Assembly: GCA_019973575.1 (NCBI GenBank) | Contig: BPUI01000001.1 | Coordinates: 1,054,001 to 1,118,000 of the forward strand | Direction of reading: 5' to 3' | From: Gemmatimonadetes bacterium T265 | GTDB lineage: Bacteria > Gemmatimonadota > Gemmatimonadetes > Gemmatimonadales > Gemmatimonadaceae | DNA: 64,000 bases | In this document: positions 12,344 through 19,856 of the stretch, in pieces | How positions within the stretch are numbered: the stretch's first letter is position 1 | Layout: each line of letters begins with the position of its first letter | Translations under genes and position numbers: made by a program | Notes under the pieces: model-generated | Database searches by the model: none | What the model saw: the letters and a program-made list of their open reading frames with translations, nothing else | What the model was told of the DNA's origin: nothing

Positions 12344-12359
12344 TTTACTGAGGAGTAAA
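12344..12359. promoter_or_regulatory. Inverted-repeat operator upstream of the efflux operon
   Basis: Perfect dyad TTTACT-GAGG-AGTAAA, AT-rich in a very GC-rich region, 73 bases before the TetR start at 12432 and in the divergent space shared with the phosphatase gene. Position and symmetry fit a TetR-family operator used for autoregulation. Confidence 0.65.
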
Positions 12360-12431: not shown

Positions 12432-15137
12432 ATGGACCTCCCCCGCCCCGACGGGCGACCCGACGCGCTGTCGTGGCAGGAACGGCAGCGGCGGATGCGC
12501 GAAGCCGCCATCCTCGACGCGGCCACCGAACTGCTCGCCGAGCGCGGCTACGCCGCGACGAGCATGGACGAGATCGCCAGTCACGTCGGGATCTCCAAGC
12601 CGACGCTCTATCAGCACTTCCCGTCCAAGGACGCGGTGGCCGTGGCGGTCACGCTCCGGCGGCTCGGCCGCGCGACCGACGACCTCGAGGGCGCCGAACG
12701 GGCGATCCGTGAGGGCGCACGGGCGCGGCCCCAGCTGGAGCGCGTGCTGCGCGGCGCGCTCGCCCGGCGCGCGGGCGTGTGGGCCACGCGCGTCGAGCTG
12801 CCGCGGAGCGTGGTCGACGGCTCGGCGGCGGTGGTCGCGGCCCGCCGCGGCGTGTGGGAGCGGATCGGCGCCCTCGTCGACCGGGCCAAGGCCGAGGGCG
12901 ACTGCCGCGCGGACATCCCGACGCCGGTGATCGTGCGCTATTTCGCGGCGATCTTCCGCGGCGACTACGGCGACCGCATCGAGCACGCGTCGGCGGACGC
13001 GGGCGGGCCGGACGCGCCGGCGTCGGTGATCGTCTCGCTCGCCTTCGACGGGCTCGCGCCGCGCCCGGGCGCCGTCGATCCCGTGGATAGCGACGTCGAA
13101 CGCGCGGTCGCGCGCTCGGGCGGGCGCCGCATCACGCGGCGAGCCTCGGCGCTCCTCGCCGGTTTCGTGGGGGTGGGAATCATGGCGCCCGCGCGGGCGC
13201 GCGCGCAGCAAGCGCCGCAGGCGCAGCCGGCACCACAGGTCCGGCCAGCCGCCGCGCGCGACACGACGAGCGGCGCCCCCGCTCCGGCGACGACGGCGAG
13301 CCCCGCCAACGCGCCCGCGACCGGTCCCGCGACCGGTCCCACCGCCGCTCAGGGGCCGCTGGCCGCGGCGCTCCGCGGGCCGACCGCGCGCGACCTGCGC
13401 GGCGCCGACCCGCGCGCGGTGGACCCGCCCGCGGGGCGTCCACCGGTGCCGCCGCTCGACAGTCGCGCGCCGATCGGCGCGCCCAGCACCGCGGCGCGCG
13501 TCGTCCCGCCGCAGCCGCTGTTCGGCGGCACTGTGCCCGCGCAGACCGAGCGCGTGCCGGACCTGCCCCGGCAGGCGGGCGGACTCGCTCCCGGCGCGCC
13601 GGCCACGCCCGCCGCGCTCGCCGGGCGGCCGCTCAGCCTGGCGGACGTGCTCGACGCGGCGCTCCGCGCCAACCCGTCGACCACCGCGGCCGTGGCGAAC
13701 GCGCAGTCCGCGCGGGCGCAGTTCCTCTCGACGCGTGCGGCCGTCTTCCCGGTCGTCGCCTTCAACCCGGGGTTCACCCACTCGCGCACGCTCGGCCTCG
13801 CCGGCGGCGGGGTCACAACCACCGCGTCCGGCGGTACCGGCACCGGTGGCGCCGGCTCGGGCGGGACGGGGACCGGCACCGGCGGCACGGGGACCGGCAC
13901 GGGGACCGGAACGGGAACGGGCACCGGTACAGGCACCGGAACGGGGACCGGCGGCACCGGGGCGGGCGGGACGACCACGACGACGTCGCTCCCCGTCGCC
14001 GGCACCGCGGCCACGACGCGCACCGCGTTCACCCCGTCGGTCGGGCTCACCTTCCTCGCCTTCGACTTCGGCGGGCGCTCGGGGCAGATCGGCAGCGCGC
14101 GCGAGACGGCCAACGCCGCGGGCGCGACGCTCGACGCGACGGTCGTCAACACGCTGCTGCAGGCCGAGACGGCGTACTTCGGCTACCAGAGCTCGCGCGA
14201 CGTCGTGACGGCGGGCGAGGCCAACGTGCGTACCGCGACGGCGAGCCGCGACGCCTCGGTCGCGCTCTTCCGCGCCGGGCTCGCCACCGTGGCCGACACG
14301 CTGCAGGCGGCGACCGCGCTCGCGCAGGCGCGCGTCACGCTGCTCAACGCGCGCACCAGCCTGTCCAACTCGCGCGACACGCTCGCGACGATCATCAACA
14401 CGCGCTCCGACGTGCCGTTCTCGATCGCCGCCGAGCGGGCGCCGACGGGGAGTGCGGCGACCGACGTGACCACGCAGCTCACGGCGCGCGTGGACACGCT
14501 GGTGGCGCACGCGGTGCGCACGCGCCCCGACGTGGACGCGTCGCGCGACCAGGCGCTCGCCGCGCAGCAGCAGGTGCGCGTGGCGCGCTCCGCGCTGCTG
14601 CCGCAGGTGACCGTGAGCGGCACGGCGGGCTACAACCAGATCTACGGCGGCGCGGTGCCGATCAACGGGACGACGTACAACGTCTCGGTCGGCCTGTCGC
14701 TGCCGTTGTTCGACGGCGGGGCGCGGCGGGCGACGCTCGAGGCGGCCAACGCGAACGCCGACGCCGCGCGCTCGCGCGCCGACGCGCTCACCACGTCGAC
14801 CGTCAACCAGGTCGTGACCGCGGCCGACGTGCTGCGCCAGAGCGCCGACCGCCTCACGGCCAACGAACTCCTGCTCGCTAGCGCGGAGCGCAACGCCGAG
14901 GTGGCGTTCGGGCGCTACCAGGCGGGGGTGGGGACGATCGTCGACCTGCTCAACGCCCAGACCACGCTCGCCACCGCGCGCTCGCAGCTGGCGCAGGCGC
15001 GCTGGGCGTGGGCGACCTCGCTCGCCCAGCTCGCGCGCAACGCGGGCATCCTCGGCCTCCGGGGCGAGCTGCCCGCGGTGGCCGCGCCCGCGGTGCCCGC
15101 TTCTACGCCGCTCTCGACTTCGAACTCTTCCCGGTGA
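12432..15137 (+). CDS. TetR regulator fused in frame to a TolC-type outer-membrane efflux protein
   Basis: One uninterrupted frame of 901 residues holds two normally separate proteins. Residues about 10-215 are a TetR repressor, with HTH region MDEIASHVGISKPTLYQHFPSKDA. At about 232-260 is a signal peptide (basic RITRR, hydrophobic ALLAGFVGVGIMA, then ARAQQ). Residues about 395-890 are an outer-membrane efflux protein with two repeats and the conserved YNVSVGLSLPLFDGG strand. An in-frame GTG at 13083 (residue 218) could start the efflux protein separately. A Gly-Thr tract lies at about 468-514. The stop overlaps the adaptor start (TGATG). A cytoplasmic repressor and an exported barrel cannot easily work as one chain, so internal initiation, processing or a lost stop is likely. 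Confidence 0.8.
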   Translation: MDLPRPDGRPDALSWQERQRRMREAAILDAATELLAERGYAATSMDEIASHVGISKPTLYQHFPSKDAVAVAVTLRRLGRATDDLEGAERAIREGARARPQLERVLRGALARRAGVWATRVELPRSVVDGSAAVVAARRGVWERIGALVDRAKAEGDCRADIPTPVIVRYFAAIFRGDYGDRIEHASADAGGPDAPASVIVSLAFDGLAPRPGAVDPVDSDVERAVARSGGRRITRRASALLAGFVGVGIMAPARARAQQAPQAQPAPQVRPAAARDTTSGAPAPATTASPANAPATGPATGPTAAQGPLAAALRGPTARDLRGADPRAVDPPAGRPPVPPLDSRAPIGAPSTAARVVPPQPLFGGTVPAQTERVPDLPRQAGGLAPGAPATPAALAGRPLSLADVLDAALRANPSTTAAVANAQSARAQFLSTRAAVFPVVAFNPGFTHSRTLGLAGGGVTTTASGGTGTGGAGSGGTGTGTGGTGTGTGTGTGTGTGTGTGTGTGGTGAGGTTTTTSLPVAGTAATTRTAFTPSVGLTFLAFDFGGRSGQIGSARETANAAGATLDATVVNTLLQAETAYFGYQSSRDVVTAGEANVRTATASRDASVALFRAGLATVADTLQAATALAQARVTLLNARTSLSNSRDTLATIINTRSDVPFSIAAERAPTGSAATDVTTQLTARVDTLVAHAVRTRPDVDASRDQALAAQQQVRVARSALLPQVTVSGTAGYNQIYGGAVPINGTTYNVSVGLSLPLFDGGARRATLEAANANADAARSRADALTTSTVNQVVTAADVLRQSADRLTANELLLASAERNAEVAFGRYQAGVGTIVDLLNAQTTLATARSQLAQARWAWATSLAQLARNAGILGLRGELPAVAAPAVPASTPLSTSNSSR
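13834..13974 (+). repeat. Gly-Thr coding microsatellite in the efflux protein
   Basis: Run of GGN-ACN codons giving mostly Gly-Thr dipeptides (about residues 468-514 of the fusion). It lies in the segment between FTHSRTLGLAGG and the next predicted beta strand (FTPSVGLTFLAFDFG), so it should extend a surface loop. Such a six-base repeat is prone to length change in steps that keep the frame. Confidence 0.75.
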
Positions 15138-16393
15138 TGCGCCCTTCGTCTTCGTTCCGCCGACTCGCCCTCGGGCTCGCCGGCGTGCTGTTCGCGGCCT
15201 GCAAGCGCGAGCCGCCTCCGCGGCCCAAGTCCGCCGTGCCGGTCACGGTCGCGACGGCGACCACGGGCACCGTGCCACTCACCTTCGTCACCAACGGCAC
15301 CGTCGAGCCCACCCAGACGGTCGCGATCCAGCCGCAGGCGCAGGGCGCGATCACCGAGGTGCGCTTCAACGAGGGCGACGAGGTGCGCGCGGGGCAGGTG
15401 CTCTTCGTCATCGACCCGCGGCCGTACCAGGCCGCGCTCGCGCAGGCGCAGGCGACGCTGGCGCGCGACCAGGCCACGGCGGTGGCGAGCCGTGCCGACG
15501 CGGCGCGCTACGGCTCGCTCGTCAGCCAGGGCTACGTGACGCAGTCGCAGGCGCAGACCATCCAGGCGCAGGCCAACGCGATCGGCGCGACGATCGCGGC
15601 CGACCAGGCGCAGGTCGACGCCGCGCGCGTCAACCTGAGCTACACGGCCATTCGCGCGCCAATCAGCGGCAGGACGGGCAACCTCAACGTGCGCCTCGGC
15701 AACCAGGTGCGCGCGCCCAACCCGGTGCCGCTCGTGACGATCAACGCGATCGCGCCGGTGCTCGTGCGCTTCCCGGTGCCCGACGGCGTGCTGCCGCAGG
15801 TGCGGCAGGCGCGCCAGGCGGGGCACCCGCTCGACGTGACGATCACCGGGCCGCTCGTCAACGGCGCGGTCGAGCACGGCTCGGTCGACTTCATCGACAA
15901 CGCGATCGACACCGTGACGGGCACGCTCAACCTCAAGGCGCGCTTCGCCAACACGGACCGGCGGCTGTGGCCGGGCTCGTTCCTGCCGCTGACGCTGACG
16001 CTGGGCGAGACGCGGAACGCTGTCCTGGTGCCGAGCACGGCGGTGCAGGAGGGGCCGCAGGGCGAGTACGTGTTCATGCCCGGGCCCGGCGGGAAGGCCC
16101 GGCAGGTGGCGGTCACGGTCGACCGCGCGGCCGGGCCGGTCACGATCATCACGAAGGGGCTGTCGGTGGGCGACACGGTCGTCGCCGACGGGCAGTCGCG
16201 CCTCACGCCCGGCGCTGACATGAAGGTTGCGCGCACCGTGGCCGTGCAGGTGCCGGGCGCCGCGCAGCCCGGGGCTGCGGCCAACGCCGAGCGCGGCCCG
16301 AACGGGCCGACGGCCCCGGGCCGGGGCGGGACCGCCAGCGGCACCGCCCCCGAGCGCGTCGCCGCCTCCGGCGCCGCGGGCCGGAACAACTGA
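15137..16393 (+). CDS. RND efflux periplasmic adaptor lipoprotein
   Basis: Membrane-fusion protein (HlyD/AcrA family) of 418 residues linking the inner-membrane pump to the outer-membrane channel. A lipoprotein signal is clear: LALGLAGVLFAAC, with the lipid-modified Cys in a lipobox. Next come the barrel-sandwich half (VAIQPQAQGAITEVRFNEGD), a helical hairpin rich in Ala/Gln (about 100-170), the second lipoyl half (IRAPISGRTG) and beta-barrel domains. The C-terminus is a Pro/Gly/Ala-rich tail. The start overlaps the stop of the upstream TolC frame by one base. It forms one operon with the outer-membrane protein and pump. Confidence 0.93.
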   Translation: MRPSSSFRRLALGLAGVLFAACKREPPPRPKSAVPVTVATATTGTVPLTFVTNGTVEPTQTVAIQPQAQGAITEVRFNEGDEVRAGQVLFVIDPRPYQAALAQAQATLARDQATAVASRADAARYGSLVSQGYVTQSQAQTIQAQANAIGATIAADQAQVDAARVNLSYTAIRAPISGRTGNLNVRLGNQVRAPNPVPLVTINAIAPVLVRFPVPDGVLPQVRQARQAGHPLDVTITGPLVNGAVEHGSVDFIDNAIDTVTGTLNLKARFANTDRRLWPGSFLPLTLTLGETRNAVLVPSTAVQEGPQGEYVFMPGPGGKARQVAVTVDRAAGPVTIITKGLSVGDTVVADGQSRLTPGADMKVARTVAVQVPGAAQPGAAANAERGPNGPTAPGRGGTASGTAPERVAASGAAGRNN

Positions 16394-16439: not shown

Positions 16440-19400
16440 ATGAATTTCGTCGCCCCGTTCATCCGGCGGCCGGTGATGACCACGCTGTTCCTGCTGTCGC
16501 TCTTGGCGGCGGGCTTCTTCGCGTGGCGCTCGCTGCCGGTGAGCGACCTGCCCAACGTCGACTACCCGACCGTCACCGTCAACGCGTCGCTCCCCGGCGC
16601 GAGCCCCGAGACGATGGCCTCGTCCGTGGCCACGGTGCTCGAGAAGCAGTTCTCGACCATCGCCGGCATCGACAACATGACGTCGTCGAGCACGCTCGGC
16701 TCGACGTCGATCACGATCCAGTTCTCCCTGGACCGCGACGTCGACGCGGCCGCGCAGGACGTGCAGGCGGCGATCAGCGCGACGCTGCGCACGCTGCCGC
16801 AGGGCATCATCCCGCCCTCGTACCAGAAGGTGAATCCGGCCAACACGCCGATCCTCTACGTGACGCTCTCGTCGCCGACGATGAAGCTGTCGGACGTCGA
16901 CGAGATCGCGGAGACCAACCTCGCGCAGCAGATCTCGACGATCAACGGCGTCGCGCAGGTGCAGGTCTTCGGCGCGCAGAAGCGCGCGGTCCGGGTGCAG
17001 ATGGACCCGCGCCGCCTGGCGCTGCTGCAGCTGGGCACGCAGGACGTCGCGACCGCGGTGGCCGCGCAGAGCCCCAACCTGCCGAGCGGCACGCTCTACG
17101 GGCCCAACCGGGCGTACGTGGTGCAGGCCAACGGCCAGCTGAGCGAGGCCTCGGAGTTCGGCAACCTGGTCGTGACGTACCGCAACGGCGCGCCGATCCG
17201 CCTGCGCGACGTGGCCAACGTCGTCGACGGCGTGCAGAACGACAAGACGGCCGCGTGGTTCGGCAACCCCGAGGCCGGGCGGCCGATCACCCGCTCGATT
17301 ACGCTCGCCATCCAGCGCCAGCCGGGGACCAACACGGTCGAGGTCGCGGACAACGTCAAGGCGCTGCTGCCCAAGCTCACGGCCAACGTGCCGGCGGGCA
17401 TCAACATGGCGATCCTGTACGACCGCTCGCAGACGATCCGCGAGGGCGTGCGCGACGTCGAGCTCACGCTGCTGCTGACGCTCGCGCTCGTCGTGCTCGT
17501 GGTGTTCCTGTTCCTGCGCTCGCCGCGCGCGACCGCGATCCCGTCGCTCGCGCTGCCGCTGTCGATCGCCGGGACGTTCGCGGCGATGAAGGCGCTCAAC
17601 TACTCGCTCGACAACCTGTCGCTCATGGCGCTGACGCTGGCCGTGGGCTTCGTCGTCGACGACGCGATCGTCGTGCTCGAGAACATCGTGCGCCACCGCG
17701 AGATGGGCAAGGACGCGATGACGGCCGCGCTGGACGGGTCGCAGGAGGTCGCGTTCACCGTGCTCTCGATGACGCTCTCGCTCTCGGCGGTGTTCCTGCC
17801 GCTGCTCTTCATGGGCGGGATCATCGGGCGGCTGTTCCGCGAGTTCTCGGTCACGATCGCCGTCTCGATCCTGATCTCGGGCGTGGTGTCGCTGACGATC
17901 ACGCCGATGCTCGCCTCGCGCTTCCTGAAGGACGCCGCCCCCGAGGCGGCGGGCGACGAGGGGCAGCGCCTCGCGGACCCGAAGACGGGCGAGCAGGCGC
18001 ACGCGACGGCGACCGGCGCGCCCGTGCCAGCGCAGGCCTCGGCGAACGCCGGGCAGCCGTCGCTCGCGCACCCGTCGGGCAACCCGGCCGCGTCGGCCCA
18101 GCACAAGGACTCGCTGCACGACGAGGCGCCGCGGATCCTGCGCCCCGCGCTCGACCTGTTCGAGCGCGGCTACGAGTGGGTGCACCGCACGTACGAGCGC
18201 ACGCTGCGCTGGACGATGCACCACCGCCCGCTCGTGCTCGCGCTCTCGGCGGTCACGCTCGTCGGCACGTACTTCGTGTACAAGGCCGTGCCGACGAGCT
18301 TCCTGCCGAGCGACGACACGAGCTTCCTGACGGCGACCACGTTAGGCGCGCAGGGCGCGAGCTTCGAGGACATGGTCGCGCACCAGCAGCAGGCGGCGCA
18401 GATCGTCCAGCAGGACCCCAACGTCGCCGCGTTCGTGAGTTCCGTCGGCTCGTCGTCGCAGGGCAACCAGGGGCGGCTCGTGATGCGCCTCAAGGACCCC
18501 AAGGCGCGCGCGCTCGACGCCGACGCGGTAGCGCGCGAGCTGACGGGGAAGCTCAACCGCATCCCCGGCCTGCAGAGCTTCGTGCAGAACCCGCCGACGA
18601 TCCAGATCGGCGGGCGGCAGACGGCGGCGCTCTACCAGTTCACGATGCAGGGCACCGACCTCAAGTCGCTCTACGCCGCGGCGAGCGCGCTGCAGCTCCG
18701 GCTGCAGAACTCGTCGCTCCTGAGCGACGTGACGAGCGACCTGTTCCTCTCCAACCCGACCGCGTCGCTCGCGATCGACCGCGCCCGCGCGGCCGCGTAC
18801 GGCGTGAGCGTGCAGACGATCGAGCAGACGCTCTACGACGCCTACGGCGCGCGCCAGGTGTCGACGATCTACACGCCCACCAACCAGTACTGGGTGGTGC
18901 TGGAGCTCCAGCCGCAGGACCAGCGCGACCCGAGCGCGCTCAACCTGCTCTACGTCAAGAGCACGACCGGCGCGTCGGTGCCGCTCGGCTCGGTGACGAC
19001 GACGGTCGACACGGTCACGCCGCTCTCGGTCAACCACTCGGGGCAGGTGCCCTCGGTGACGATCTCGTTCAACCTGCGCGCGGGCGTCGCCCTCGGCACG
19101 GCCACGCAGTACGTCGAGCAGCAGGCCGCGCAGGTGATCCCGGCGTCCTCGTCGATCATCACCAGCTTCGGCGGCACGGCGCAGGCGTTCCAGTCGAGCC
19201 AGGCCGGGCTGGCCGCGCTCCTCGTACTCGCGATCCTCGTCATCTACGCGATCCTGGGCGTGCTCTACGAGAGCTTCATCCACCCGATCACGATCCTCTC
19301 GGGGCTGCCGTTCGCGGTGTTCGGGGCGCTGCTCGCGCTCTACGTGTTCAACCAGGAGCTGTCGGTCTACGCCTTCATCGGCCTCGTGCTGCTGATCGGC

Positions 19401-19856
19401 CTCGTGAAGAAGAACGCGATCATGATGGTCGACTTCGCGGTCGAGGCCGAGCGGACGCGGAACCTCGACCCCGAGGAGAGCATCTTCGAGGCGTGCCTGG
19501 TGCGCTTCCGGCCGATCACGATGACCACGCTCGCGGCGATCGTCGGCACGCTGCCGATCGCGCTCGCGCTCGGCGCCGGCGCCAAGAGCCGCCAGCCGTT
19601 AGGCATCGCGGTCGTCGGCGGCCTGCTCTTCTCGCAGCTCGTCACGCTGTACCTGACGCCGGTGATCTACACGTACCTCGACACGCTGCAGCAGCGCTGG
19701 GCGCACCGGAAGGCGAGGGGCACGGTGGCCCGGCCGGGGCAGGACGCGGGCGACGACGACCGCGGCGACCAGGGCGGGCGCGGCGTGCCGACGCCGGCCC
19801 CGGCGCCGCGGCCGGTGCCGCAGCCGCTGCCGGCCGCCGCGGCGGTCCGGGCCTAA
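16440..19856 (+). CDS. RND multidrug efflux transporter, inner-membrane pump (HAE1/MdtBC type)
   Basis: Proton-driven multidrug exporter of 1138 residues, slightly longer than the usual 1030-1060. The N-terminus MNFVAPFIRRPVMTTLFLLS is typical, the first helix leading into SDLPNVDYPTVTVNASLPG. The proton-relay aspartates are in LAVGFVVDDAIVVLENI (about 406-407). The second half repeats the pattern, with LVKKNAIMMVDFAVEAER. An extra hydrophilic insert of about 70 residues (about 500-573, rich in Ala, Gly and Pro) lies after the sixth helix region, before the second hydrophobic half. The C-terminal tail is Asp/Gly then Pro-rich. It works with the upstream adaptor and TolC-type channel, likely under control of the fused TetR domain. 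Confidence 0.95.
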   Translation: MNFVAPFIRRPVMTTLFLLSLLAAGFFAWRSLPVSDLPNVDYPTVTVNASLPGASPETMASSVATVLEKQFSTIAGIDNMTSSSTLGSTSITIQFSLDRDVDAAAQDVQAAISATLRTLPQGIIPPSYQKVNPANTPILYVTLSSPTMKLSDVDEIAETNLAQQISTINGVAQVQVFGAQKRAVRVQMDPRRLALLQLGTQDVATAVAAQSPNLPSGTLYGPNRAYVVQANGQLSEASEFGNLVVTYRNGAPIRLRDVANVVDGVQNDKTAAWFGNPEAGRPITRSITLAIQRQPGTNTVEVADNVKALLPKLTANVPAGINMAILYDRSQTIREGVRDVELTLLLTLALVVLVVFLFLRSPRATAIPSLALPLSIAGTFAAMKALNYSLDNLSLMALTLAVGFVVDDAIVVLENIVRHREMGKDAMTAALDGSQEVAFTVLSMTLSLSAVFLPLLFMGGIIGRLFREFSVTIAVSILISGVVSLTITPMLASRFLKDAAPEAAGDEGQRLADPKTGEQAHATATGAPVPAQASANAGQPSLAHPSGNPAASAQHKDSLHDEAPRILRPALDLFERGYEWVHRTYERTLRWTMHHRPLVLALSAVTLVGTYFVYKAVPTSFLPSDDTSFLTATTLGAQGASFEDMVAHQQQAAQIVQQDPNVAAFVSSVGSSSQGNQGRLVMRLKDPKARALDADAVARELTGKLNRIPGLQSFVQNPPTIQIGGRQTAALYQFTMQGTDLKSLYAAASALQLRLQNSSLLSDVTSDLFLSNPTASLAIDRARAAAYGVSVQTIEQTLYDAYGARQVSTIYTPTNQYWVVLELQPQDQRDPSALNLLYVKSTTGASVPLGSVTTTVDTVTPLSVNHSGQVPSVTISFNLRAGVALGTATQYVEQQAAQVIPASSSIITSFGGTAQAFQSSQAGLAALLVLAILVIYAILGVLYESFIHPITILSGLPFAVFGALLALYVFNQELSVYAFIGLVLLIGLVKKNAIMMVDFAVEAERTRNLDPEESIFEACLVRFRPITMTTLAAIVGTLPIALALGAGAKSRQPLGIAVVGGLLFSQLVTLYLTPVIYTYLDTLQQRWAHRKARGTVARPGQDAGDDDRGDQGGRGVPTPAPAPRPVPQPLPAAAAVRA

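Follow-up and report, generated by a model that had tools for sequence, protein, structure and literature searches.

A TetR-type repressor and a TolC-type channel share one reading frame at the head of an RND efflux operon in Gemmatimonadaceae

How can a cytoplasmic DNA-binding repressor and an exported outer-membrane channel be encoded in one chain? The question is raised by a gene of a soil bacterium, Gemmatimonadetes bacterium T265, located in the 64,000-nt stretch of DNA analyzed here (hereafter the window; positions 1,054,001–1,118,000 of a contig in a six-contig genome of 5.63 Mb).

One frame for repressor and channel

On the forward strand, 901 codons run without a stop from position 12432 to a TGA at 15135–15137, in a frame that leads from a complete TetR domain via an internal Sec-type signal sequence and a disordered linker to a complete TolC-type channel. 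Pfam places both TetR_N (PF00440) and OEP (PF02321, two stretches) in the same 901-residue chain. As G+C at third codon positions amounts to 0.83–1.00 from 12432 across the junction but is lower ahead of 12432, coding is continuous in the fusion frame and 12432 a sensible start. The original prediction, namely TetR and a TolC-type channel in one continuous frame, was thus confirmed by the frame itself, Pfam, codon statistics and a counterpart in the genus Gemmatirosa. Mechanically, the ORF opens further 5′, at ATG 12240 (965 aa); this start was rejected, as that stretch contains the operator-like site at 12344–12359 and coding statistics begin at 12432.

The TetR/AcrR-type repressor domain covers residues 1–211 (12432–13064, +), with its helix-turn-helix at residues 27–73 (PF00440, 1.8e-19; 69.6 bits vs. 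a cutoff of 24). In an AlphaFold2 model, built on a shallow alignment of 13 rows, the helices between residues 15 and 206 mostly reach pLDDT values of 74–96, dropping to 60 around residue 116. Foldseek matched this part to FadR (TMt 0.75), DarR (0.69) and MtrR (0.63), and in the model a helical ligand/dimer domain completes the TetR fold. TetR-family members are typically free-standing soluble proteins of ~200 aa; here, no stop precedes the channel. The window protein is 54% identical to its Gemmatirosa counterpart in the TetR part and 58% in the TolC part. When the divergence of the two halves was compared, identity was 52.5% for TetR vs. 55.4% for TolC; the TetR half has thus not diverged much faster than the channel, gives no sign of decay, and looks functional.

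The channel half comprises residues 392–901 plus stop (13605–15137, +) and carries two OEP repeats (PF02321; 173.7 bits, 4.5e-51, two stretches); its match to NCBIfam TIGR01844 scored 166 bits, under the cutoff of 225. Long TolC helices span residues 546–871 of the AlphaFold2 model, and Foldseek matched the E. coli TolC, OprM and OprJ-like chains. Both halves hence model as complete folds with a disordered linker between them. Within the first OEP repeat, positions 13830–13985 encode a Gly-Thr dipeptide repeat array (GTGTGT..., with tandem repeats of 12–24 bp) that is likely a loop. The genes that follow supply the remaining parts of a tripartite RND efflux operon: an HlyD/AcrA-type periplasmic adaptor (15137–16393, +; PF16576, and TIGR01730 [RND_mfp] at 2.5e-74), whose ATG overlaps the stop of the fusion gene (TGATG), and an RND permease of the AcrB/MdtBC type (16440–19856, +; PF00873 [ACR_tran] at 2e-297, NF033617).

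Upstream region and candidate operator

The region upstream of the fusion gene contains an operator-like palindrome, TTTACTGAGGAGTAAA, at 12344–12359. A scan for TTTACYNNNNRGTAAA (TTTACT-N4-AGTAAA) allowing up to one mismatch returned it as the single site in the 5.63-Mb genome. Since the motif was derived from the window, only other genomes count as tests. The same scan of the Gemmatirosa genome again yielded a single site, TTTACTAGCCAGTAAA, just upstream of its fusion gene, and in G329, a relative with separate genes, the sole site (one mismatch) lies directly upstream of tetR. Related sites matching 9–11 of 12 positions precede tetR in several Chloroflexota relatives (L090, L091, L095, L097, L098, L118), and weaker palindrome-like sites do so in the split relatives G343 and G367; no convincing palindrome was found ahead of tetR in the distant relatives L096, L099 and L100. 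Members of the TetR family typically have a palindromic operator near their own promoter, and TTTACTGAGGAGTAAA is a candidate for such a site. Judging from this distribution, the single TTTACT-N4-AGTAAA palindrome ahead of the operon is most likely bound by the TetR half.

In the Chloroflexota relatives L090–L094, we noticed two tandem sites of the TTTACT/AGTAAA type upstream of the regulator gene. The gene divergent to the fusion encodes a HAD-family phosphatase (PF12710; 11558–12241, −) with a likely start at ~12241, and the resulting 190-bp intergenic region holds the palindrome. As the palindrome sits between the two divergent genes, the phosphatase gene may share the operator and be co-regulated.

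Fused and split relatives

A search with the TetR half across 59 genomes retrieved one close match with an equally open frame. It belongs to a different genus, Gemmatirosa kalamazoonensis (G016), whose finished genome carries the fusion on plasmid NZ_CP007130.1. This protein of 693 aa has the same layout, with Pfam assigning TetR and OEP domains to one polypeptide, so that the check for the fusion in related genomes came out positive. Searches of the family, order, class and phylum, and of named genomes, turned up only five close members of this TetR clade in the phylum. Two belong to the family of the window and are fused; the other three, from different families, are split. In a tree of these five, the fused genes are sisters (support 92/92). 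Homologues are therefore not always split, and no stop or indel interrupts the join, the frame being open in the window and likewise in Gemmatirosa; either finding had been named in the original prediction as one that would speak against it.

In the split relatives G343, G329 and G367, a signal peptide follows directly after the tetR stop. In G343 and G329, tetR and tolC share a frame and the stop of the one abuts the start of the other (TAG|ATG), while the two genes overlap as ATGA in G367; in G343, an adaptor and an RND permease lie downstream in the same order as in the window. Since one TAG separates in-frame genes in two split relatives, the loss of a single stop would suffice for a fusion. 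Ancestrally, tetR and tolC were probably separate genes, each with its own start, and the simplest history would be that the stop between abutting genes was lost once. With regard to two relatives (L163:2346–2354 and L164) in which a single TAG|ATG lies between in-frame tetR and tolC, readthrough of the stop would also yield a fusion. Other long stop-to-stop frames near TetR genes in relatives were inspected and set aside, since most of them are open by chance in G+C-rich DNA.

A second kind of fusion was found in three species of one genus (g7; G006, G131, G132). There, a CecR-like TetR is joined via the signal-like RLKRASAFLLLLAGVACAGG to a YbhG-like HlyD adaptor, giving a protein of 538 aa (L042:1397–3010, corresponding to G006:C17:6396–8009; also L174 and L175). 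In several other genera, the same TetR and HlyD genes adjoin in a different frame. As both the TetR and the exported protein differ from those of the window, this fusion arose independently, which suggests a recurrent route in this family and offers a ready comparison. The TetR half of the TetR–HlyD fusion has a dN/dS of 0.07–0.09 between species, indicative of strong purifying selection; this ratio was taken on the TetR–HlyD set, the window and Gemmatirosa proteins being too diverged for dN/dS. Our search of the open-access literature found no report of TetR–TolC or TetR–HlyD fusions.

Parting of repressor and channel

Outer-membrane channels of this family typically start with an N-terminal signal peptide, but in the fusion the signal-like segment is internal, at residues 228–258 (13113–13205, +). 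Judged by simple rules only (hydropathy, charge, AXA motif), it consists of RSGGRRITRR, an h-region (residues 238–252) and ARARA, with a predicted signal peptidase I site after Ala258. The h-region, ASALLAGFVGVGIMA, is the most hydrophobic stretch in the whole protein, with RRITRR before and ARARA|Q after it. The junction reads RSGGRRITRRASALLAGFVGVGIMAPARARA|QQ in the window (residues 228–258 ahead of the bar) and RKRTVPRRALALAALSLVAHAVLLDA|QP in Gemmatirosa. Both fusions thus have a net positive charge ahead of the signal-type segment, followed by an A-x-A or L-x-A|Q site, and the segment takes the place of the N-terminal signal peptide found on TolC in the split relatives. The Pro/Ala-rich linker that follows (residues 259–391; 13206–13604, +; pLDDT ~30) is largely missing from the Gemmatirosa protein, as seen from an alignment gap. 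The model is disordered over residues 229–391, and its signal segment and the relative placement of the two halves are of low confidence.

We consider it somewhat more probable than all other readings together that the gene encodes a regulatory polyprotein, from which TolC is exported via the internal signal and cut off by signal peptidase, with TetR staying cytoplasmic and membrane-tethered. Loss of the stop between two abutting genes would have joined the repressor to the first exported subunit of the pump it controls. During synthesis, the Sec machinery would be engaged by the internal signal sequence and thread the TolC half into the periplasm, while TetR remains cytoplasmic. Signal peptidase would then cut after ARA258, so that the channel could go on to the outer membrane and TetR would keep a membrane anchor at its C-terminus; at 15 residues, the h-region is short for a permanent anchor, which counts against tethering. 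Because the TetR frame has no stop, each ribosome starting at tetR must also make the channel, so the repressor would be made 1:1 with it and be anchored where efflux substrates come in, at the inner membrane. On ligand binding, TetR would come off the operator, and all genes of the operon, that of the repressor among them, would be switched on. Autoregulation via the palindrome, Sec insertion, cleavage after Ala258, delivery to the outer membrane and a tethered TetR are all inferred from sequence. The initial view that a repressor and an exported barrel are incompatible in one chain proved too strong, since a cytoplasmic domain, a signal or anchor helix and an exported domain make up an allowed topology; that the fusion is an unusual way of coupling channel amount to its repressor held up, as it is real, recurs in a second genus and can couple doses.

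Of the three ways out that had been proposed, proteolysis (by signal peptidase) and membrane tethering seem more likely than internal initiation, now the weakest. The channel might nonetheless arise mainly from GTG 13083, or from another start or re-initiation event close to where tetR ends, with ribosomes starting at tetR making a minor full-length fusion that acts as the repressor; we regard this as possible, if doubtful. The ancestor probably had two independently started genes, and starting at GTG 13083 (residue 218; 13083–13085, +) would give a normal-looking signal peptide of 41 residues, as would an ATG at residue 200 in Gemmatirosa. However, these two candidates lack a Shine-Dalgarno sequence (−2.5 and −2.1 kcal/mol, respectively) and differ in position, so that GTG 13083, which is a non-conserved codon without Gemmatirosa counterpart, is disfavored as the main channel start. 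The missing Shine-Dalgarno counts only modestly against an internal start, since genuine starts in the operon are weak too (−3.5 for tetR, −3.0 for the overlapping start of the adaptor) and the genes of split relatives score mostly at background: of their values of −4.9, −5.9 and −11.6, only the last is clearly above a background in which 28% of positions reach −5. The sole strong start, ATG 13182 (−9.7), lies inside the h-region and was rejected, as most of the h-region would be lost, leaving a channel without signal. Moreover, in the TetR–HlyD fusions the only conserved ATG or GTG candidates fall within the TetR domain, and translation of tetR would make the fusion anyway.

Three further explanations bear on whether the chain is cut, whether it matters and whether it exists. 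An uncut TetR–anchor–TolC chain could remain inserted in the inner membrane, acting as sensor and regulator in one with the layout of CadC or ToxR, while another TolC serves the pump. Known membrane-bound regulators are indeed built in this way, from a DNA-binding domain in the cytoplasm, a single hydrophobic segment and a domain in the periplasm, and well over a dozen further OEP genes are present in the genome; yet both fusions keep a recognizable signal peptidase site, and the OEP half retains both repeats and strong conservation, as if working in the outer membrane, which makes this reading unlikely in our view. We give equally little credence to a neutral or decaying fusion, in which the lost stop is tolerated and the TetR half has ceased to regulate, or proteolysis hits the chain at random. 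That there are only two members, whose linkers differ widely in length, would fit; but the helix-turn-helix and the palindrome are conserved between two genera diverged to ~54%, the TetR half has no excess divergence, and the parallel TetR–HlyD fusion has its TetR-half dN/dS of 0.07–0.09. As only two fused members of the clade are known, the fusion as such may not have been selected for, and a harmless, neutral loss of the stop is possible. Finally, long G+C-rich repeats nearby could in principle have led to an assembly or sequencing error that removed a stop or frameshift. The same fusion in the finished Gemmatirosa kalamazoonensis genome and the continuous codon statistics of the window make this highly improbable, and judged from these sequences an error is refuted for the fusion as such.

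Returning to the polyprotein, the arrangement is an unusual form of the known repressor-efflux operon that, on the sequence evidence, is real and conserved in two genera. If the proposed scheme is true, a repressor would be made in one chain, in a fixed 1:1 ratio with the exported part of its own pump and probably membrane-held, a solution to pump regulation unlike separate repressor genes; annotation assumptions that export signals are N-terminal and that proteins with a TetR domain are soluble would be challenged. More speculatively, and with considerable doubt on our part, repression could run in step with channel export: the spent signal helix would tether TetR, the ratio of precursor vs. 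cut product would report export, and repression would thereby sense outer-membrane delivery as well as drug, such TetR–signal–exported-subunit polyproteins having arisen at least twice in Gemmatimonadaceae.

AcrR–AcrAB, MtrR–MtrCDE and split tetR-tolC-hlyD-acrB operons share with the window the same parts, the order of the split relatives and the same kind of autoregulatory palindrome. In operons of the AcrR/MtrR type, however, repressor and channel are separate proteins, whereas the window encodes one polypeptide with an internal signal. ToxR and CadC likewise combine a cytoplasmic DNA-binding domain, one hydrophobic segment and an extracytoplasmic domain in one chain, but have a winged helix and a periplasmic sensor in place of TetR and an outer-membrane channel with a predicted signal peptidase site. 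Signal peptidase parts two proteins encoded in one frame at an internal signal in FbcH, the cytochrome b/c1 polyprotein of Bradyrhizobium japonicum. The window has, by sequence rules only, the same combination of one frame and an internal signal with a cleavage site; in FbcH, both parts are respiratory-complex subunits, whereas here one part is a cytoplasmic DNA-binding repressor and cleavage is predicted only. The Streptomyces Rieske protein uses an internal Tat signal to export its C-terminal domain (PMC13186574). As in the fusion, the signal that exports this domain is not at the N-terminus, but the Rieske protein relies on the Tat pathway and a membrane-embedded N-terminal part (PMC13186574), whereas in the window a Sec-like signal follows a soluble DNA-binding domain.
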